From Paludibacter sp. (GTDB lineage: Bacteria > Bacteroidota > Bacteroidia > Bacteroidales > Paludibacteraceae): a stretch of DNA of 37,401 nt. The stretch is from assembly GCA_009781075.1 (NCBI GenBank), contig WQYU01000009.1, positions 1 to 37,401 of the forward strand. The letters run 5' to 3'. Every line of letters starts with the position of its first letter. Position 1 is the stretch's first letter. The notes beneath the pieces were generated by a model. That model was given only the letters and a program-made list of their open reading frames with translations. It was not told the origin of the DNA and did no database searches. Of the stretch, positions 4,012 to 31,621 are shown piece after piece. The translations under genes were made by a program, and so were the position numbers.

Positions 4012-4095
4012 ATACAACGAGCAGTTTCACGCAGGCGAGGCGTTGTCTCGTCCGAACTTTACCGATGCCCCCGCCTGCTGCTAAAAACGTTGGCT
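4012..4095 (+). repeat. attC-like cassette recombination site, copy D (best formed)
   Basis: R''-like ATACAAC (4012-4018) and R'-like GTTGGCT (4089-4095) bracket an 84-base hairpin. CAACGAGCAG (from 4015) and GCAGGCG (4031-4037) pair in order with CGCCTGC TGCT and CGTTG on the right side, with an asymmetric bulge on the left. This is the R''-L''...L'-R' layout of integron attC sites. The central GGCGTTGTCTCGT block is shared with copies A and E. Confidence 0.55.
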
Positions 4096-4317: not shown

Positions 4318-4923
4318 ATGAAAAAAGTAATGATTATGAGTATTTTAAGTTCGCTGATTGTTGCAGCGATTTTGACTTCTTGTGGCGGCGATAATGCAAC
4401 GAACAAATTAGTTAAAGAACTAAATTCAAGTTACACAAACGACGGAAAAGAGGTGGAACTTGTTGGCTATATTGCCATTGTATCTGGTAGAGCGGGTGGC
4501 ACATCAGTAAATAATGGCAAAATTACAGTTGGTTTGACAAATTCAAATTGGCAACAAAAACAAGATGCTTTTGCACAAGCAAAAATAAATTTTGGGAAAG
4601 ATAGTAATAGTTTGTGGTTACCTGAAAAATTTTTACTTTCTGATGTGGAAATTTACGATTCAAAAGGACAAAAACATGATGTAAACACCAAATTAGCCAT
4701 AAAAGGAATCGTTCATTACACAAATAAAGATTGGGAAAATGCTCTCAAACAGGAACAGGAAGGCAAAAAGGATATGTTCAGCAACAATCCTGCGTTCCAA
4801 AAAATGCGTGAAAAATCATTGAACGAAGACAAAGCCGCCGCCAAAGCACGAGAAAAGAAAACAGGCGACCCCAACAATTATTCGTTTGAAATAAGTGTAA
4901 ACGAAATTTCTGTTGCGAAATAA
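4318..4923 (+). CDS. Lipoprotein of unknown function
   Basis: A 201-residue protein with a basic N-terminus, a hydrophobic signal and the lipobox LTSC at residues 19-22, so Cys22 would be lipidated. The mature part has a VELVGYIAIVSG strand region and DVNTKLAIKGIVHY, which together hint at a small OB-like beta barrel, then a Lys/Glu-rich helix (KSLNEDKAAAKAREKK) and a last strand. No named family is recognised. It stands alone between two attC-like sites and is therefore probably a one-gene cassette. Confidence 0.65.
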   Translation: MKKVMIMSILSSLIVAAILTSCGGDNATNKLVKELNSSYTNDGKEVELVGYIAIVSGRAGGTSVNNGKITVGLTNSNWQQKQDAFAQAKINFGKDSNSLWLPEKFLLSDVEIYDSKGQKHDVNTKLAIKGIVHYTNKDWENALKQEQEGKKDMFSNNPAFQKMREKSLNEDKAAAKAREKKTGDPNNYSFEISVNEISVAK

Positions 4924-4999: not shown

Positions 5000-5083
5000 C
5001 GATAACGAGGGGTTTGGCGTCAGGCGGGGCGTTGTCTCGTGTGAACATTTGTGTAACCCACGCCTGCTGCCAACACGTTTGTG
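5000..5083 (+). repeat. attC-like cassette recombination site, copy E
   Basis: R''-like CGATAAC (5000-5006) and R'-like GTTTGTG (5077-5083) enclose exactly 84 bases, the same span as copy D. CAGGCG (5021-5026) pairs with CGCCTG (5061-5066), and TTGGCG pairs imperfectly with TGCCAA. The left half is almost identical to copy A. The next gene begins 87 bases downstream. Confidence 0.55.
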
Positions 5084-5169
5084 TGCAAGTGAGTGAGAAG
5101 TGTCGTGAAAAGATGATGAGTGTGCCGAGAAAAAATATAAACAAACATTAAGAACTAAAATTTATAAAT

Positions 5170-7106: not shown

Positions 7107-8144
7107 ATGAATAACAAAGTAGAACACAATAAATACGGTGAAATGTTGCGGTATATCATTACCGAAATAAAATCTACGCGGGTAACTCTTGCCCACAGGA
7201 TAAATTCGGGAATGATGCAAATGTATTGGAATATCGGCAAACGTCTTTCTGTAGAAAAAATAGAAAAGGGTTATGGAGCGAGTGTTGTAAAACGCCTTTC
7301 GGCGGATTTACAGCAAGAATTTCCGGAAACAACAGGCTTTTCGCCGCGCAACTTGTGGAATATGAAGAACTTTTTTGAGTTCTATGCTTTGGCTGATGAA
7401 AAAATGCAACGCAGCGTTGCACTTTTACCGTGGCGACATAATATACTCATTATCAGCAAAGTAAAAACACTTGAAGAAGCAAAATATTATATAGAAATAG
7501 CGCACGAAAACAGTATGTCGCGTGATGTTTTGTTAAATTTTATTAAGGCAGACAGTTATAGAAATGCCAAAATTTTGCCGAAACACAACAATTTTGCGCT
7601 AACTTTACCCGAAGGTTTACAGGAACAGGCAAATGAAATTCTGAAATCAACTTACAATCTTGAGATGCTTGGGCTAAGACAGCCATTGAAAGAGCGCGAA
7701 CTTGAGCAGAGAATTGTTGAAAAAATCAAATTCTTCTTACTTGAACTCGGCGCGGGTTTTACTTTTGTTGGAAATCAGTATCGTCTGACCTACAATGAAG
7801 AAGAATATTTTGTGGATTTGTTGTTTTACAACCGTAAAGTTCGTTCGCTTGTGGCAATAGAACTGAAAGTTGGAGCATTTCAGCCGGAATATATCGGAAA
7901 AATGAATTATTATCTCGGCATTTTGGACAAAACAATGCGGGAGGAATATGAAAATCCGTCAATAGGCATTATTCTGTGTGCTGACAAAGGAAAAGTAGAT
8001 ATTGAATTGGCATTGCGCGATTTCAATAAACCAATTGGTGTTGCTGAATATATGTTGCAATTTCCAGAAAAAGCAATCAAGGAGTTAATTAACAAAGAAG
8101 TAGAAGAATTTGCAGCAGAAAAAATATTACAAAAAAATGATTAA
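7107..8144 (+). CDS. DUF1016/YhcG family PD-(D/E)XK nuclease
   Basis: A 345-residue protein. The N-terminal DUF1016_N region (MQMYWNIGKRLSVEKIEKGYG, then PETTGFSPRNLWNMKNFFEFY) is followed by a C-terminal PD-(D/E)XK fold with FVDLLFYN at about residues 233-240 and AIELK at about 249-253, the Asp and Glu-x-Lys of the active site. The length is typical of YhcG proteins. They are widespread in accessory regions and are linked to restriction, mobile elements or toxin-antitoxin-like roles; the exact task is unsettled. It precedes gmd by only 23 bases, but its function is unrelated to sugar synthesis, so it probably marks the edge of the accessory region. Confidence 0.85.
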   Translation: MNNKVEHNKYGEMLRYIITEIKSTRVTLAHRINSGMMQMYWNIGKRLSVEKIEKGYGASVVKRLSADLQQEFPETTGFSPRNLWNMKNFFEFYALADEKMQRSVALLPWRHNILIISKVKTLEEAKYYIEIAHENSMSRDVLLNFIKADSYRNAKILPKHNNFALTLPEGLQEQANEILKSTYNLEMLGLRQPLKERELEQRIVEKIKFFLLELGAGFTFVGNQYRLTYNEEEYFVDLLFYNRKVRSLVAIELKVGAFQPEYIGKMNYYLGILDKTMREEYENPSIGIILCADKGKVDIELALRDFNKPIGVAEYMLQFPEKAIKELINKEVEEFAAEKILQKND

Positions 8145-23063: not shown

Positions 23064-24254
23064 ATGAAAATCCTCCGTATTATCCCTTCAATGAACCCTA
23101 AAGGCGGCGGACCTTGTCAGGGCATCAGAAACTCTATTCCCGAAATGAAGAAATCAGGCGTGGAAAACGAAGTTGTTTGTTTGGATTTGCCTAATTCAGA
23201 GTACTTAGGGAAGGATAACTTTGTCATTCATACCATTGGTACATCAAAAAACTTATGGGGTTACAGTAAAAATTTGCTTCCATGGCTCTTGAAAAATTTT
23301 GAGAAATATGATGCTGTTATTGTTCACGGTTTGTGGACATATCATAGTTATGCAACTGTAAAAGCATGGAAAAAATTCAAAAAACAGAATATAAAATTTC
23401 CGAAACTTTTTGTAATGCCTCACGGAATGCTCGACCCATATTTTCAAACAGCAAAAGGACGAAAATTAAAAGCAATACGTAATTGGATTTACTGGAAAAT
23501 AATTGAAAATAAAGTGATTAATTCGGCAGATGGCGTTTTGTTTACTTGTGAAGAAGAACTTCTTTTGGCAAAAAATCCATTTAAACCCTATTTCCCTAAA
23601 AAAGAATTAAACATAGGTTACGGTATAGAGCCGCCGCCTGTTTTTTTGGAAAAAATGACAGCCGCTTTTGCAGAAAAAGTGCCTGCATGGAATGGTAAAC
23701 CTTTTATTTTGTTTTTAAGTCGGATACACGAAAAAAAAGGCGTAGATTTGTTGATAAAATCATATAATAAATTACAAAAAGATGCTCCATCGCCTTTGGA
23801 GAGGGCTGAGGAGGGGCTTCCGCAACTTATTATTGCAGGACCTTTAGGAAGCAATTATGCAAAAGAGATGCAAAAGTTAGCAGAAAATAACAACAACATT
23901 CTTTTTGCAGGAATGCTGAATGGCGATAGTAAATGGGGCGCATTTTACAATTGCGAATGTTTTGTTTTGCCGAGCCATCAGGAGAATTTCGGCATAGCAA
24001 TTGTGGAGGCAATGGCTTGCAAAAAACCTGTATTAATTACAAATAAAGTAAATATTTGGCGCGAAATTGCAAGTGAAAACGGCGGATTTATAGCAAACGA
24101 TACCGAAGAAGATATACAGATGTTATTAAATAAATTTTTGACTTTGTCTAAAAAAGAAAAAACAATAATGGGTGAAAATGCTTTTCATACATACCAAAAG
24201 TATTTTTCAATAGAAAAAGCAGCAGAAAAAATGATTGAAACATTATGGAATTAA
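23064..24254 (+). CDS. Glycosyltransferase, GT4-like
   Basis: A 396-residue GT-B protein. N-terminal LRIIPSMNPKGGGPCQGIRN and FVMPHGMLDPYFQTAKGRK are typical of a large Bacteroidota GT4 group. The C-terminal half has PFILFLSRIHEKKGVDLLI, ECFVLPSHQENFGIAIVEAM and ACKKPVLITNKVNIW. An extra segment of about 11 residues (SPLERAEEGLP) sits in the loop before LIIAGPLGS and is encoded by a palindrome-like repeat. The last residues (ETLWN) differ from the likely ancestral EVLK because the Fic gene begins inside the final codons. Otherwise it looks intact. Confidence 0.88.
   Translation: MKILRIIPSMNPKGGGPCQGIRNSIPEMKKSGVENEVVCLDLPNSEYLGKDNFVIHTIGTSKNLWGYSKNLLPWLLKNFEKYDAVIVHGLWTYHSYATVKAWKKFKKQNIKFPKLFVMPHGMLDPYFQTAKGRKLKAIRNWIYWKIIENKVINSADGVLFTCEEELLLAKNPFKPYFPKKELNIGYGIEPPPVFLEKMTAAFAEKVPAWNGKPFILFLSRIHEKKGVDLLIKSYNKLQKDAPSPLERAEEGLPQLIIAGPLGSNYAKEMQKLAENNNNILFAGMLNGDSKWGAFYNCECFVLPSHQENFGIAIVEAMACKKPVLITNKVNIWREIASENGGFIANDTEEDIQMLLNKFLTLSKKEKTIMGENAFHTYQKYFSIEKAAEKMIETLWN
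23786..23822 (+). repeat. Palindrome-like repeat inserted in frame within a glycosyltransferase
   Basis: CCTTTGGAGAGGG followed by CTGAGGAGGGGCTTCC resembles the 'CTCCAAAGG...AGGGG' intergenic palindromes common in Bacteroidota. The same theme (CCCCTCCAAAGGAGGGG) occurs at 37178-37194 in non-coding DNA. Here it is translated as part of a surface loop. Confidence 0.5.
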
Positions 24255-24967
24255 TAACATATCTCAAAGAAGAAAAAGATTCAAAACGAAAAGGTGGTTT
24301 ATATCATAAAACTCAGGTAAATCTCGCCTACAACTCAAATAGGATAGAGGGAAGTAAACTTACAGAAGAACAAACCCGTTATATTTTTGAAACTCGTACT
24401 ATAGGATTTAAAGACCAGGAGGCTGTACCTGTGGATGATATTATAGAAACTTCAAATCATTTTGTAGCGTTTGATTATCTGATAGATACGATTGATATGC
24501 CATTTTCAAATGTTTTAATCAAAAAATTTCACAATATTTTAAAAACAGGTACTTCCGATACAACAAAAGAGTGGTTTAAGGTTGGCGAATGGAAAAAACT
24601 GCCAAACGAAGTTGGCGGAACAGCAACCACCTTACCACAAAATGTAGAAACCGAAATGAATAAACTCAATCAATGGTATAATTCCACACACGAAATTGTT
24701 TTTGAAAATATTGTGGAATATCATTATCGCTTTGAGAAAATTCACCCGTTTCAGGATGATAATGGCAGAGTTGGACGCTTGATTATGTTCCGTCAGTGCT
24801 TGAAAAATAACATAATTCCATTCATTATTGACAATAATCACAAGCAGTTTTACTATCGCGGCTTGAAAGAATTTGCAAAAACAAGAAGTTATTTATTGGA
24901 TACTTGCCTGTCGGCACAGGATACATATAAAGAATGGGTTAAGTATTTTTATGTAGATTTTTGGTGA
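24245..24967 (+). CDS. Fic family protein with N-terminal inhibitory motif
   Basis: A 240-residue Fic protein. Fic enzymes usually transfer AMP from ATP to a target protein hydroxyl. The active-site motif is HPFQDDNGR at residues 167-175; the usual HPFxDGNGR has Gly where Asp172 is found, so anion binding may be altered. The inhibitory (S/T)xxxE(G/N) motif is present as Ser31-x3-Glu35-Gly36, making it a class II (self-inhibited) Fic. It starts 10 bases before the stop of the glycosyltransferase and is followed by a decayed copy of that gene's 3' end, so it appears inserted into the polysaccharide locus. A link to sugar synthesis is unlikely. Confidence 0.88.
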   Translation: MELITYLKEEKDSKRKGGLYHKTQVNLAYNSNRIEGSKLTEEQTRYIFETRTIGFKDQEAVPVDDIIETSNHFVAFDYLIDTIDMPFSNVLIKKFHNILKTGTSDTTKEWFKVGEWKKLPNEVGGTATTLPQNVETEMNKLNQWYNSTHEIVFENIVEYHYRFEKIHPFQDDNGRVGRLIMFRQCLKNNIIPFIIDNNHKQFYYRGLKEFAKTRSYLLDTCLSAQDTYKEWVKYFYVDFW

Positions 24968-24985
24968 AAAAACTAAAACAGACAG

Positions 24986-25062
24986 AAATGCTTTTCGTGC
25001 TTACAAAAAAATATTTTTCAATAGAAAAAACAGCAGAAAAAATGATTGAAGTATTGAAGTAA
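24986..25062 (+). pseudogene. Duplicated 3' end of a GT4 glycosyltransferase
   Basis: This stretch repeats the end of the glycosyltransferase at 24176-24246. A 39-base core differs at one position, and the reading frame gives YFSIEKTAEKMIEVLK then a stop, against YFSIEKAAEKMIETLWN in the intact gene. One extra A in an A-run breaks the frame upstream of the core. The Fic gene lies exactly between the two copies. Confidence 0.8.
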
Positions 25063-25663: not shown

Positions 25664-26215
25664 ATGAGTTTCAATCCTGTTCAAACAAATCAGATGTCAA
25701 TGTCATTGAAGATAGGGAATATCATTTGGCGCATTGTAAACAAAACTATTTTCCGGCTTATACCGCGATATACCCCTTTATTCAAAAGAACAAAGGTATT
25801 ATTATTAAAAATGTTTGGTGCAAAGGTAGCATGGACTGCAACTATTGATTCTTCTGCAAACATTGAATATCCATGGAATTTAACAATGGGACATTTGTCC
25901 TCTTTGGGCGAAAAAAGTTGGATATATGCTATGGCTCCAATTATTATAGGAGAAAAAACGTGCATTGGGAAAAATGTATATTTAATAACAGGTTCTCACG
26001 ACATAACTTCTTGTACATTTGATTTAATTGTAAAACCAATAATAATTGGAGATAACGTTTGGATTGCTACCGGTTCATACGTTTTACAGGGTATTCAAAT
26101 CAACAATAATGCTGTGATAGCAGCAGGAGCTGTTGTTGTAAATAATGTAGGAGACAGTGATATTGTAGGCGGCAATCCTGCAAAATTTATTAAGAAAAGG
26201 GAAATAAAAGAGTGA
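25664..26215 (+). CDS. WcaF-like left-handed beta-helix acyltransferase (2)
   Basis: A 183-residue hexapeptide acyltransferase only 6 bases after its paralogue. It shows LLLKMFGAKVAWTATIDSSA, YPWNLTMGHLSSLGEKSWIY, ITGSHDITSCTFDL (with the catalytic-type His), NNNAVIAAGAVVVNNV and the C-terminal IVGGNPAKFIKKREIKE. It probably acetylates a different sugar position from the first enzyme. Its 3' end (from 26172) is found again in decayed form at 27511-27549, beyond the BRO-N/Fic gene. Confidence 0.88.
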   Translation: MSFNPVQTNQMSMSLKIGNIIWRIVNKTIFRLIPRYTPLFKRTKVLLLKMFGAKVAWTATIDSSANIEYPWNLTMGHLSSLGEKSWIYAMAPIIIGEKTCIGKNVYLITGSHDITSCTFDLIVKPIIIGDNVWIATGSYVLQGIQINNNAVIAAGAVVVNNVGDSDIVGGNPAKFIKKREIKE

Positions 26216-26261
26216 TTTTTTTTTACAAATATAGAATTGAATTCCATATTTGTAAAAAAAA
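26216..26261. terminator. Probable bidirectional terminator
   Basis: A run of T, then ACAAATAT (26225-26232) and ATATTTGT (26245-26252) as stem arms, then a run of A. Inner bases GAATT/AATTC extend the pairing. It directly follows the stop of acyltransferase 2, so the operon may end or attenuate here, and the BRO-N/Fic gene starts anew. Confidence 0.65.
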
Positions 26262-26336: not shown

Positions 26337-27197
26337 ATGAGTAAAATATCGATTCGATTTTTCGATGATAAAGAAGTTCGAGCCGTTTGGGACGATGAAA
26401 ATTCCAAATGGTGGTTTTCTGTGCTTGATATTGTTGCCATATTGAGCGAAAGCGCCGATGCTCGAAACTATTGGTATGTTCTGAAAAACCGTCTAAAAAA
26501 GTCGAATAGCGAAGTCCTTACAAATTGTAAGGGGTTGAAATTAATTGCACCGGACGACAAACTTCGTTTAACAGATGTGCTTGATGATAAAGGAATTATC
26601 GCTCTTGCTAAAGAATTTCCGGGCAAAAAAGCAAATAAATTTATCGAGTGGTTTACTTACAGTTCCGAAACCATTGACGGCAAAAGTAAAACCAAGGCAT
26701 ACGCCTTATTTGAAAGCGGTATGTTAAAATCGCTTGAACCCGGCAGCATAAAATGCTTGCAACAAATTCACGCTTATTTGTTTGGCGGTCTTTACGATTT
26801 TGCAGGACAGATACGAACATTGAACATAAGTAAAGGAGGCTTTCGTTTTGCTCCTGCACAATATTTAGACCATAGTTTGAAAGTCATAGAGAATATGCCC
26901 GAAACGACTTTTGATGAAATTATAAATAAATATGTTGAAATGAATGTAGCCCACCCTTTTATGGAAGGAAACGGCAGAAGCACAAGAATATGGCTTGATT
27001 TAATATTGAAACGGACACTGAAAAAATGTGTGGATTGGAGTAAAATTAACAAAAACGACTATCTAAGTGCTATGACCGAGAGCGTTGTTAATAGCACAAG
27101 AATAAAATCACTTATCGAAAACGCATTGACCAATAAAATTAACGACCGTGAAATGTTTCTCAAAGGTATTGACTATTCATATTATTATGAAGAATAA
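26337..27197 (+). CDS. BRO-N domain fused to a Fic domain
   Basis: A 286-residue protein with two parts. Residues 1-95 ([28 protein letters not shown], then [20 protein letters not shown]) resemble the BRO-N/antirepressor domain of phage proteins. Residues 110-270 are a Fic domain with [19 protein letters not shown] and the motif HPFMEGNGR (206-214), complete in catalytic His and Asn/Arg residues. The likely activity is AMP or other nucleotide transfer to a protein, with the BRO-N part as a DNA- or partner-binding regulator. It is unrelated to polysaccharide genes, comes after a terminator and is flanked by a duplicated acyltransferase end. Confidence 0.85.
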
Positions 27198-27510: not shown

Positions 27511-27549
27511 AACAATCTTGCAAAATTTATTAAAAAAATAGAGAAATAA
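27511..27549 (+). pseudogene. Remnant of the 3' end of a hexapeptide acyltransferase
   Basis: It translates as NNLAKFIKKIEK then a stop, matching GNPAKFIKKREIKE at the end of acyltransferase 2 and GNPAKFIKKRIIK of acyltransferase 1. Over the first 26 aligned bases (27513 against 26173) 24 are identical. It lies 13 bases before the start of the membrane acyltransferase gene. Confidence 0.75.
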
Positions 27550-27561
27550 AAAGGATAAAAA

Positions 27562-28576: not shown

Positions 28577-29485
28577 ATGCTTGATTTATCTACAATAATT
28601 CTCACATTCAACGAAGAAATTCACATTGAACGCTGTATTAGTAATGCACAAAAATTTTCGAAAGAAATTTTTGTAGTAGATTCGTTTTCTACAGATAAAA
28701 CAGTGGAAATAGCAGAATCGCTTGGCACAAAGGTTTTTCAAAATAAATGGGAAAAAACTTATGCTAAGCAGTTTAATTGGGCATTGGCAAATCTTCCCAT
28801 AACAACAAAATGGATTTTGCGCCTCGATGCAGATGAATATTTAACAGACGAATTGATTGAGGAAGTGAAGCAAAAGTTACCGAATTTGGAGGAAAATGTT
28901 ACAGGTATAATTCTGAACCGTGAGCAGGATTGTTTTGGGAAATGGGTACATCCACTTGAATTATTGCGTATTTTCCAATATAAAAAAGCAGTTTGCGAGC
29001 AGCGTTGGATGGATGAGCACATTCAGATTTTAGAAGGCACAACCATAAAATTTCAACATAAATTTTGCGACTATAATCTAAACTCTTTCGGTTGGTGGAT
29101 AGAGAAACACAACGGATATTCTATTCGCGAAGCGATTGATTTGCTTAATGTAGAATTAGGATTATTGGAAGACGTAGAAACGCTGGACAATACATTTTTA
29201 CAGATTGGTGCAGAGGCAACTGTTAAGCGTAATAAAAAACTGAAATATGCCCGCTCTCCACTATTTTGGCGTTCTTTCGGTTATTTTATTTACCGTTATT
29301 TTATCAAATTAGGTTTTATAAAAGGGAAACAGCAGTTTATTTGGGATTTTTTTCAGGGCTGGTGGTATCGTACTTTGGTTGATGTGAAAATTTATGAAAT
29401 AAAACGTGCCTGTGGGAACGACAAAGAAAAAATTATAGAATTTATCAGAGCAAAATACGGAATCGATGTGAGGGCGATACAATGA
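28577..29485 (+). CDS. Glycosyltransferase family 2 (WaaE/KdtX-like)
   Basis: A 302-residue GT-A enzyme. LSTIILTFNEEIHIERCI, IFVVDSFSTDKTVEIAESLG, WILRLDADEYLTDELIEEV (DxD-type motif) and WMDEHIQIL form the typical core of WaaE-like beta-glycosyltransferases. The C-terminal region, including FLQIGAEATVKRNKKLKY and FIKGKQQFIWDFFQGWWYRT, is also typical. Its stop overlaps an ATG (ATGA) that begins a vestigial second GT2 reading frame, showing where the next gene of the operon originally began. Confidence 0.9.
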   Translation: MLDLSTIILTFNEEIHIERCISNAQKFSKEIFVVDSFSTDKTVEIAESLGTKVFQNKWEKTYAKQFNWALANLPITTKWILRLDADEYLTDELIEEVKQKLPNLEENVTGIILNREQDCFGKWVHPLELLRIFQYKKAVCEQRWMDEHIQILEGTTIKFQHKFCDYNLNSFGWWIEKHNGYSIREAIDLLNVELGLLEDVETLDNTFLQIGAEATVKRNKKLKYARSPLFWRSFGYFIYRYFIKLGFIKGKQQFIWDFFQGWWYRTLVDVKIYEIKRACGNDKEKIIEFIRAKYGIDVRAIQ

Positions 29486-29547
29486 AAATTTCAATTATAA
29501 CTATAGTTTTTGTTTCCAAAAAAATCACTATTACAGGGAAAAATTAA
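29482..29547 (+). pseudogene. Vestigial 5' end of a GT2 glycosyltransferase
   Basis: Starting in an ATGA overlap with the previous stop, it encodes MKISIITIV, identical to the first nine residues of the intact GT2 at 30863, then runs into tandem repeats and stops after 21 codons. In the first 28 bases 25 match the intact copy, and all three differences are synonymous. The AAA ATPase gene lies between the two copies. Confidence 0.8.
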
Positions 29548-29608
29548 ATAAAAAAAATCACTATTACAGGGAAAAATTAAACAAAAAAAATCACTATTAC
29601 AGGGAAAA
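29518..29608 (+). repeat. Three tandem 33-bp direct repeats
   Basis: The core ATCACTATTACAGGG recurs at 29524, 29557 and 29590, an exact 33-base period (about three helical turns). Each copy is flanked by A-runs. The array ends just upstream of the -7 element of the ATPase gene, so it may be an operator or recombination-related array. No other copies were seen in the window. Confidence 0.85.
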
Positions 29609-29613
29609 TTTTG

Positions 29614-29621
29614 TATCTTTG
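29614..29621 (+). promoter_or_regulatory. -7 promoter element of the AAA ATPase gene
   Basis: TATCTTTG is a perfect TAnnTTTG match. The third tandem repeat occupies the place of the -33 element. Because this element overlaps the GTG at 29621, translation should start at ATG 29639. Confidence 0.6.
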
Positions 29622-29638
29622 TGAAAAATTTATTGAAA

Positions 29639-30814
29639 ATGGAAGAATTGTACCAAAATTTTGAGGAACTTTTGAGTAAAACCCCTACTGATTTTAAGCG
29701 TTATTTATTTGAAAAAATCAATTGGAACTCTCGAATGTTCGGTATTGTTGGTCCGCGTGGAGTAGGCAAAACAACGCTCGTGTTGCAGCGTATAAAGGAA
29801 AATCACAGCGCAAGCGACACGCTTTATGTTTCTATGGACAATTTTTATTTTGCCAATCATTCGTTACAGGACACAGTAGACGCATTTTACAAAGATGGTG
29901 GCAAATTTCTCTTTATAGACGAAATACACAAATACCCTCAATGGTCGGTAACTTTAAAATATCTATACGACAATTATTCCGATTTGAAAATAGTTTTTAC
30001 AGGTTCGTCTGTTTTGGATATTTTAAAAGGTAATGCTGATTTGAGTCGTCGTGCTTTGCTTTTTTATTTGCAGGGCATGTCATTTCGCGAGTATCTGCAT
30101 TTTTTCCATAACATTATAATTCCTGTTTTATCTCTTAATGAAATAATTTCGCACAAAAGCAACGAATTAAAGCAAATAATCGGTTATCCGATTAAATTTT
30201 TTAAAGAATATTTGCAAAAAGGATATTTCCCTTTTGCAAATGACAGCGATTTTTCGGCTCATTTGCAGCAAATTGTTGTCCAAACATTGGAATCAGACAT
30301 TCCAATGTTTGCAAATATGAATGTTAGCACGGGCAGAAAACTGTTGAAACTTTTAGCAATAATCGCAAATTCCGTTCCGTTTAAACCAAATTTCTCAAAA
30401 CTTGCACGACTTATCGATGCGAGTAAAAATAGTATTACCGACTATTTTTATTACATCGAAAAAGCGGGAATGATTGCTCAACTTCGCGAAAAAACCGAAA
30501 GTTTTTTAGTAGTTGGAAAAACTGAAAAAGTTTATTTAGATAATACTAATCTTGCTTTTTGCCTTAGTGAAAAAGAACCGGACGTTGGAAATTTGCGTGA
30601 AACAGTTTTCTTTAATCAAATGCGGGTAAATAATAAAGTTTTCTCAAGCGTAAAAGGCGATTTCAATATTGAAAATATGACTTTTGAAGTAGGCGGAAAA
30701 AGCAAAAATCACAAACAAATAGAAAATTTAAAAAATGCGTTTATTGTCAAAGACGACATTGAATACGGGTATAAAAATGTTGTGCCGTTGTGGGCATTTG
30801 GATTAAACTATTAA
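29639..30814 (+). CDS. AAA ATPase, DUF4143-type
   Basis: About 391 residues from ATG 29639, preferred over GTG 29621, which lies in the promoter. Walker A GPRGVGKT is at residues 38-45 and Walker B KFLFIDEIHK has Asp94-Glu95. Sensor-like IVFTGSSVLDIL and DLSRRALLFYLQGMSFREYL follow, then a winged-helix region (SKNSITDYFYYIEKAGMI) and a PD-(D/E)XK-like C-terminal domain (MTFEVGGKSK). This architecture is common in bacterial and archaeal solitary ATPases of unknown role. It has its own promoter, is unrelated to polysaccharide synthesis and splits two GT2 genes. Confidence 0.88.
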   Translation: MEELYQNFEELLSKTPTDFKRYLFEKINWNSRMFGIVGPRGVGKTTLVLQRIKENHSASDTLYVSMDNFYFANHSLQDTVDAFYKDGGKFLFIDEIHKYPQWSVTLKYLYDNYSDLKIVFTGSSVLDILKGNADLSRRALLFYLQGMSFREYLHFFHNIIIPVLSLNEIISHKSNELKQIIGYPIKFFKEYLQKGYFPFANDSDFSAHLQQIVVQTLESDIPMFANMNVSTGRKLLKLLAIIANSVPFKPNFSKLARLIDASKNSITDYFYYIEKAGMIAQLREKTESFLVVGKTEKVYLDNTNLAFCLSEKEPDVGNLRETVFFNQMRVNNKVFSSVKGDFNIENMTFEVGGKSKNHKQIENLKNAFIVKDDIEYGYKNVVPLWAFGLNY

Positions 30815-30862
30815 AATTGTGATGTAAGTTTAAAATTATGCAATAAACGCATATTAAATTCT

Positions 30863-31621
30863 ATGAAAATATCAATAATTACTATAGTTTATAATAACGC
30901 TGATTTTATTGAAGAATGTATTCAATCGGTTTTAAATCAGGACTTTGAGAATATTGAATACATTGTAATTGACGGTGGCTCAACTGATGGTACCCGGCAA
31001 ATTATTGAAAAATATTACGATAAAATCGCTTTCTATATTTCGGAAAAAGACAATGGCTTGTATAGCGCTTTGAACAAGGGAATTACACACTCAACAGGCG
31101 ATATTATAGGTATTTTACATTCTGATGATGTGTTTTTTGAAAAAAATACTTTGTCGGAAATCGCCCGAACATTTGAAAAAACTAATGCCGATTTGGTTTA
31201 TGCAAACGGGCAATATGTTGATGAACAAGATATTAATAAAGTCAAGCGAATTTATCCTGCAAAAGTATTCAAAAAATATTATTTAAAATTCGGTTGGATT
31301 CCGTTGCACACAACAATTTACGTAAAACGCAAAATTTTTGAAAAGTACAGACTTTACGATGAAAATTATTCAATAGCAAGCGATTATGATATTTCTCTGC
31401 GCTGGTTTTTTACTGATGAAATAAAAAAAGTTTTCCTCGACAAATGGGTTGTAAAGATGCGGCTCGGAGGGAAAAGCACGTCAATGAATTTACAAAAAAG
31501 AAAATCTGCCGAAGACTTAAAAATCATTAAAAAATATAAATTGTGGGGAAGGTTTACATTATTTTTTAAAATCGTACGGAAAATTCCACAATATACGTTA
31601 CCAAAAATAAAAAGATATTAA
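30863..31621 (+). CDS. Glycosyltransferase family 2 (WcaA-like)
   Basis: A 252-residue GT-A protein: MKISIITIVYNNADFIEECI, YIVIDGGSTDGTRQIIEKYY, EKDNGLYSALNKGITHSTGD and GILHSDDVFF (DxD-like) are typical of the family group that includes colanic acid WcaA/WcaE enzymes. SIASDYDISLRWF near residue 170 is the acceptor-side motif of this group. It is intact, but its natural operon context was broken: a decayed copy of its first codons remains 1.38 kb upstream, on the other side of the ATPase gene. Translation probably depends on transcripts reading through the ATPase gene. Confidence 0.9.
   Translation: MKISIITIVYNNADFIEECIQSVLNQDFENIEYIVIDGGSTDGTRQIIEKYYDKIAFYISEKDNGLYSALNKGITHSTGDIIGILHSDDVFFEKNTLSEIARTFEKTNADLVYANGQYVDEQDINKVKRIYPAKVFKKYYLKFGWIPLHTTIYVKRKIFEKYRLYDENYSIASDYDISLRWFFTDEIKKVFLDKWVVKMRLGGKSTSMNLQKRKSAEDLKIIKKYKLWGRFTLFFKIVRKIPQYTLPKIKRY

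Follow-up and report, generated by a model that had tools for sequence, protein, structure and literature searches.

The window analysed here, that is, the whole stretch of DNA under study, comprises 37,401 nucleotides (nt) of a Paludibacter sp. assembly (GCA_009781075.1, contig WQYU01000009.1). Our subject is a junction within it, inside a polysaccharide cluster, where two glycosyltransferase genes, GT2A and GT2B, are separated by the gene of an AAA_14 ATPase and where the beginning of GT2B occurs twice: at the head of the gene itself and, as a short stub, at the stop codon of GT2A. The features of the junction are as follows.

28577..29485, + strand: GT2A glycosyltransferase gene, intact (Pfam PF00535, 5e-18); its TGA stop overlaps the ATG of the stub (ATGA)
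29477..29509, + strand: stub, a copy of the GT2B start region at the left edge of the insertion; encodes MKISIITIV and is non-homologous thereafter; 28 of 33 nt identical to 30858-30890
29510..30857, + strand: putative inserted cassette of about 1.35 kb (promoter/operator, ATPase gene, short tail), lying between both GT2B start copies, with presumed edges
30858..30890, + strand: second copy of the duplicated segment, i.e., the working GT2B start, matching the stub at 29477-29509
30863..31621, + strand: GT2B glycosyltransferase gene, intact (Pfam PF00535, 1e-33); orthologue at 79% in the sister-species genome G002

A duplicated gene start at the GT2A/GT2B junction

The peptide MKISIITIV is encoded both by 29482-29508 (ATGAAAATTTCAATTATAACTATAGTT) and by 30863-30889 (ATGAAAATATCAATAATTACTATAGTT), with three nucleotide differences, all of them silent. 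Apart from these changes, the stub at 29482-29509 equals the first 28 nt of GT2B (30863-30890); the GT2A stop, TGA at 29485, shares an ATGA with the stub ATG. When the 28-nt GT2B start was searched for in the window, allowing up to three mismatches, it was found in two places, the stub and GT2B, and in none of 100 dinucleotide shuffles, while a degenerate GT2-start pattern run over the whole 2.48-Mb genome matched these two sites only. Because a third match is missing from the window and any match from the shuffles, and because the pattern is unique in the genome, the resemblance of the stub to the GT2B start is not due to chance. An earlier reading of the DNA, made from the sequence only, had equated the stub with the N-terminus of GT2B, three silent differences apart, and both the sequence and this genome-wide uniqueness bear it out.

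Between the two copies lie three 33-nt tandem repeats (29518-29608 as first delimited) and the ATPase gene, which is of the AAA_14/DUF4143 type. No transposase or integrase was noticed among the open reading frames at 28-33 kb, a region in which the profile search was confined to the ATPase, GT2A, GT2B and the gene that follows.

The same junction in related genomes

The window genome (G000) was compared with two others of the same genus, G001 and G002 (the latter from a sister species), and with G108 and G072 from outside the genus. G002 keeps the gene order, with GT2A (85-86% amino acid identity) and GT2B (79%) followed by an NTP_transf_5 gene (70%), and its cargo between GT2A and GT2B is a DUF1016/YhcG nuclease gene, with no ATPase there. 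The G002 GT2A runs via ATGA into a stub of its own (ATGAAATTCTCTATCATCACCA), matching the start of the resident GT2B at 28 of 29 nt, leader included; the 22 coding nucleotides of this stub are identical to those of that GT2B and differ at 4 or more of the 22 positions from all other GT2 starts compared. Since both the length of the stub and the cargo differ between G002 and the window, either two separate insertions occurred at this junction or one cargo replaced another.

An empty form of the junction occurs in G108, which belongs to another genus of the same family: the TGA of its GT2A homologue (65% amino acid identity) and the start codon of a GT2B-like gene (39%) share an ATGA, with no cargo. 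A GT2B-like gene directly 3' of a GT2A-like gene was also seen in G090, G357, G035 and G007. On the G001 contig C63 (loci L045, L066 and L110) there are several AAA_14 genes, one of them directly upstream of GT2A and another following a GT gene whose end is duplicated; a long AC-dinucleotide run lies 3' of GT2A on this contig.

We consider it very probable that GT2A and GT2B were ancestrally adjacent and coupled by ATGA, that the cassette inserted at their overlap, and that the process is a recurrent one in the genus. The sequence-only reading had already proposed the former coupling and the arrival of the ATPase between the two genes, and the second cargo in G002 and the empty junction in G108 now support both proposals. 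It had also suggested looking for relatives whose GT2 genes overlap by ATGA without an ATPase; G108 fits this description, though its downstream gene is a distant GT2B homologue (39%).

Gene-end scars around other cargo genes

Three further genes of this kind were recognized in the window by PADLOC, namely a DUF1016 gene (7107-8144, PDC-S02), with no flanking duplication above the threshold given below, and two Fic genes (PDC-S04), whose surroundings are the following.

24156..24244, + strand: 3' end of the GT4 gene, copy 1, upstream of Fic gene 1; its last codons read into the Fic gene 1 start (alignment score 54)
24245..24967, + strand: Fic gene 1 (PDC-S04; PADLOC)
24966..25055, + strand: extra GT4 3' end, 3' of Fic gene 1 (92% over 49 nt, 73% over the adjoining 44 nt)
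26173..26216, + strand: 3' end of the acetyltransferase gene (NPAKFIKKREIKE-stop), upstream of Fic gene 2
26337..27197, + strand: Fic gene 2, with a BRO-N domain (PDC-S04; PADLOC)
27513..27556, + strand: extra acetyltransferase 3' end (NLAKFIKK..) after Fic gene 2 (77% over 44 nt; score 27)

Fic gene 1 took over the last GT4 codons, so that GT4 now stops inside the Fic gene 1 start, with the second GT4 end placed after the Fic gene.

We then surveyed G000, G001 and G002 by comparing the left with the right flanks of those Fic, DUF1016 and AAA_14 genes whose flanks were available, the score threshold of 22.5 being the 99th percentile of a null obtained from mismatched flanks. Flank scores exceeded this threshold for 9 of 41 such cargo genes vs 3 of 108 other genes (Fisher p = 0.0004, computed with 40 cargo genes). 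Two loci above the threshold, L104 and L114, look like tandem or palindromic repeats and were rejected as gene-end scars; with these dropped, gene-end cases amount to 7 of 40 cargo genes (p = 0.004), and they amount to 6 of 39 (p = 0.011) when the window junction, which had prompted the test, is dropped as well. In G001, a 101-nt copy of an epimerase start precedes a DUF1016 gene (L081), and the end of a glycosyltransferase gene is duplicated 3' of an AAA_14 gene (L110). Outside the genus, in G072, a homologue of the window ATPase sits between two copies of the holA 3' end. Altogether, single-gene defence candidates (AAA_14 ATPase, DUF1016, Fic) appear to move recurrently within the genus in a manner that spares the genes next to them.

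Two other arrangements came to light. At L089 (G001, contig C80), an SDR gene and an AAA_14 gene are surrounded by what seem to be three copies of the end of a ketoacyl-synthase-like gene. In the window, a control gene at 4318-4923 is flanked by a 75-nt imperfect direct repeat (4018-4091 and 5006-5095), seemingly richer in G+C than its surroundings.

Origin of the two copies

The copies at the G002 junction are nearly identical. Those of holA in G072 show six differences in their last 81 nt, all six silent, beside more than 60 further nucleotides that are identical; about 22% of random changes would be expected to be silent. Copies at L081, L110 and Fic gene 1 also carry coding changes, as would be expected of older scars. 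Where the differences are silent only, both copies were probably still coding as they diverged, and are therefore not simply a fresh duplication of the target. Hence recombination with a diverged donor is likelier at the window junction than a fresh duplication produced by a staggered cut.

The course of events that we propose starts from GT2A and GT2B as immediate neighbours whose translation was coupled through ATGA. A self-contained cassette of one gene, with its own promoter, an operator array and the PDC-S01 ATPase, would have entered at the overlap in such a way that the first 30 nt or so of GT2B came to flank it on either side; neither transferase would have been damaged, the left copy being now a dead stub. 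The two copies may once have served as functional gene ends in separate, diverged strains, recombination having brought in the cassette together with a piece of the donor flank, and the silent divergence would then reflect a donor that already carried the cassette. Genus-wide, cargo would enter at gene ends, duplicating about 29 to 150 nt of the end of the neighbour, and events that bear such duplications would survive because both neighbouring genes are spared.

An unlikely but serious alternative is simple transposition: a long-stagger cut in the target, made by the ATPase or by an associated nuclease, would be repaired by filling in, and the copies of the resulting target-site duplication would later drift apart. 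The near identity of the G002 copies (28 of 29 nt) is what such a mechanism would produce, and duplication lengths vary as they do in insertion with long target duplication, going by passages of PMC3874152. On the other hand, the differences are exclusively silent in the two clearest diverged cases (three of three in the window, six of six in the 81 nt of holA), far from the proportion expected by chance, while a dead copy drifting freely should gain coding changes. Moreover, no terminal inverted repeats common to the cassettes were noticed, although no systematic search for them was made.

The stub might instead be the remnant of a third GT2 gene, distinct from GT2B and lost by deletion or overwriting on the arrival of the ATPase, given that starts resembling MKISIITIV are common in GT2 proteins. 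GT2B orthologues from elsewhere do score nearly as high against the stub (23 of 27 for L056), and three silent differences would suit two genes evolving separately. Yet this origin is improbable: the G002 stub is closest to the GT2B of the same genome, with every other GT2 start worse by at least 4 of 22 nt, no other gene of G000 starts in this way, and gene-end copies also flank cargo whose neighbours are not GT2 genes. A third family member was the finding that, according to the sequence-only reading, would have overturned it; with the stubs of both sister genomes fitting their own GT2B best, and no other GT2 start fitting, that possibility is now disfavoured. We infer an insertion at the GT2A/GT2B junction, as opposed to the loss of a third gene.

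An assembly artefact, in which a mixture of strains in the metagenome gave chimeric joins, is highly improbable even though all three genomes of the genus are multi-contig drafts, because three genomes show the pattern, each time with other cargo, and show it at several loci, because most of the copies have diverged too far to count as shared words in an assembly, and because G000 and G002 agree in the order of the flanking genes, all of which are intact.

Beside the draft state of these assemblies, some other observations weigh against the insertion at a coupled junction. No cassette-free strain of the species of the window was found, so that the insertion is read from relatives. The uninterrupted ATGA junction is known only from G108, i.e., from a different genus and with a diverged GT2B-like gene downstream, and no closer empty site turned up among the GT2A relatives in 358 genomes of the family. 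The two copies of the GT2B start in the window differ at 5 of 33 nt, which is above expectation for a fresh duplication. Finally, about 32 of the 41 cargo genes surveyed have no detectable flanking duplication.

The ATPase and its upstream repeats

The main component of the cassette and the elements preceding it are located as follows.

29518..29616, + strand: three 33-nt direct repeats, core TCACTATTACAGGGAAAA, putative operator array (TRF)
29614..29621, + strand: TATCTTTG, at the end of the three 33-nt repeats, matching the Bacteroidota -7 box (consensus TAnnTTTG); predicted promoter
29639..30814, + strand: STAND-like AAA_14 ATPase with a probable winged helix and a putative PD-(D/E)XK-like C-terminus, PADLOC family PDC-S01 (from Pfam AAA_14, the PDC-S01 profile, invariant motifs and a structural model)

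The ATPase matches AAA_14 in Pfam (E 1.3e-29) and the PDC-S01 profile of PADLOC (best E 3.9e-27, residues 36-305); its DUF4143 match is below the cut-off (20.9 vs 28.1). Translation more likely starts at ATG 29639 than at GTG 29621, because the methionine encoded by the former is invariant in 13 homologues. Also invariant across these homologues are R40-G41-x-G43-K44, D94-E95 and R137-R138 (Walker motifs and the DLSRR segment), as well as D341, E350, K356 and Q360, a set of residues that would be compatible with a PD-(D/E)XK site.

The predicted structure is confident (pLDDT 88.8, pTM 0.88). Residues 10-311 of the model match the archaeal STAND-like ATPases 2qen (Z 15.5, root-mean-square deviation 4.2, 257 residues aligned) and 2fna (Z 15.1), and the structure search also returned CED-4/NLR proteins; from these similarities, and from the helical region that follows the ATPase core, a winged helix is expected. 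No PD-(D/E)XK nuclease stood out among the matches listed, a negative of little weight, with one domain filling the list and residues beyond 314 barely covered. Searching the sequences of solved structures with the ATPase gave only Walker-A-level matches to RecA. The role proposed for the protein is that of an ATP-gated nuclease defending against phages. In one genome (G006, contig C18, locus L019), a complete ATPase homologue is followed by a partial second copy comprising the 3' half, suggestive of tandem insertion or decay.

The -7 promoter box of the Bacteroidota has the consensus TAnnTTTG, and a match to it lies upstream of most of the ATPase homologues. A sigma-70 scan of the ATPase upstream region gave nothing useful, as expected in this phylum. 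The exact repeat core of the window is absent from the ATPase homologues, which carry their own, different repeat sequences at the same upstream position. Within 170 nt upstream, the best direct repeat is offset by exactly 32-33 nt in 29 of 34 family members vs 8 of 68 control genes (p = 2.5e-13), a contrast that loses some of its force since the spacing was noticed and counted in the same loci. The repeat unit is clearly palindromic in several members (e.g., TTGCAC-N7-GTGCAA), and the spacing amounts to about three helical turns. The core was rejected as a dispersed mobile repeat, its only three copies in the genome all lying in the array 29518-29616. Upstream regions at L005 and L008-L039 show member-specific direct repeats at 32-33 nt, often palindromic, which could possibly represent a protein-operator code.

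The 33-nt repeats look like the promoter/operator of the ATPase and not like a separate element. Accordingly, where the sequence-only reading had an ATPase module with tandem repeats placed between the GT2 genes, the insertion stands, but not the repeats as an element in their own right. The likeliest reader of this presumed operator is the ATPase itself, in an autoregulatory fashion, because no regulator gene travels with it; the DNA-binding domain of the protein would bind the repeats and so limit its expression. One could go further and picture PDC-S01 as a minimal self-regulating mobile unit, in which the ATPase-nuclease recognizes its own palindromic 32-33-nt repeats (their sequence co-diversifying with the protein), represses itself, and uses recognition and nuclease to spread the cassette into gene ends with variable target duplication; we regard this extended scheme as quite unlikely.

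Comparison with known systems

According to passages of two recent reports, PDC-S01 is a defence candidate of one gene, very common, which joins an ATPase to a PD-(D/E)XK member and came to notice through its embedding in other systems (PMC12988326, PMC13356809), an approach (guilt-by-embedding) that they credit to a 2024 preprint by Payne et al. The same passages rank it fourth in frequency among the defence families of prokaryotes (PMC12988326) and first among single loci surveyed in the rumen (PMC13356809), and describe the anti-phage activity of most PDCs as experimentally pending (PMC12988326). The window ATPase resembles these genes in being a PDC-S01 member and a single gene embedded in another system; it differs in that the host is a glycosyltransferase operon with a readable insertion scar, whereas the cases in those passages lie in defence operons. 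They make no mention of a 32-33-nt operator array.

The scars and arrays make it testable how such single defence-candidate genes spread and how they are kept in check: a gene-end scar marks the boundaries of an insertion, and a member-specific array predicts where the protein concerned would bind. The presence of different cargos at one junction and of a conserved promoter array with member-specific sequence provides handles on the spread and control of PDC-S01-type genes.

As to control, the window array is reminiscent of the RptR defence island, where three palindromic direct repeats overlap the promoter of the defence unit and a DNA-binding protein represses through them (PMC12255303); in both cases three repeats lie at the promoter of a defence-type unit. 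RptR, however, is a separate 9-kDa repressor acting on 9-bp repeats, whereas the window has its repeats spaced at 32-33 nt and lacks a separate regulator gene, and control would be exerted by the ATPase itself.

As to movement, restriction-modification genes have been described as undergoing insertion with long target duplication (Nobusato, Uchiyama, Ohashi and Kobayashi 2000, Gene 259:99, as cited in passages of PMC3031569, PMC3874152 and PMC1643837). As far as those passages go, it shares with the window defence-type genes and long direct duplications of the target that vary in length; the described insertions show no recognizable transposon, and no transposase or integrase was noticed among the open reading frames at 28-33 kb here. 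The target is directly duplicated on both sides of the inserted gene in the window (28 of 33 nt) as in G002 (28 of 29 nt). The described cases have restriction-modification cargo and duplications of the order of 100 bp, whereas here the cargo is a single ATPase, Fic or DUF1016 gene, in Bacteroidota and at gene ends inside a polysaccharide cluster, and the copies are about 29 to 150 nt long, often diverged, and in the clearest cases only silently so. The window therefore displays the same style of movement, with other cargo, in another phylum and at gene ends in a polysaccharide cluster. New findings are a second cargo at the same junction, scars that recur at gene ends, copies that have diverged silently, and a promoter array that extends across the ATPase family.
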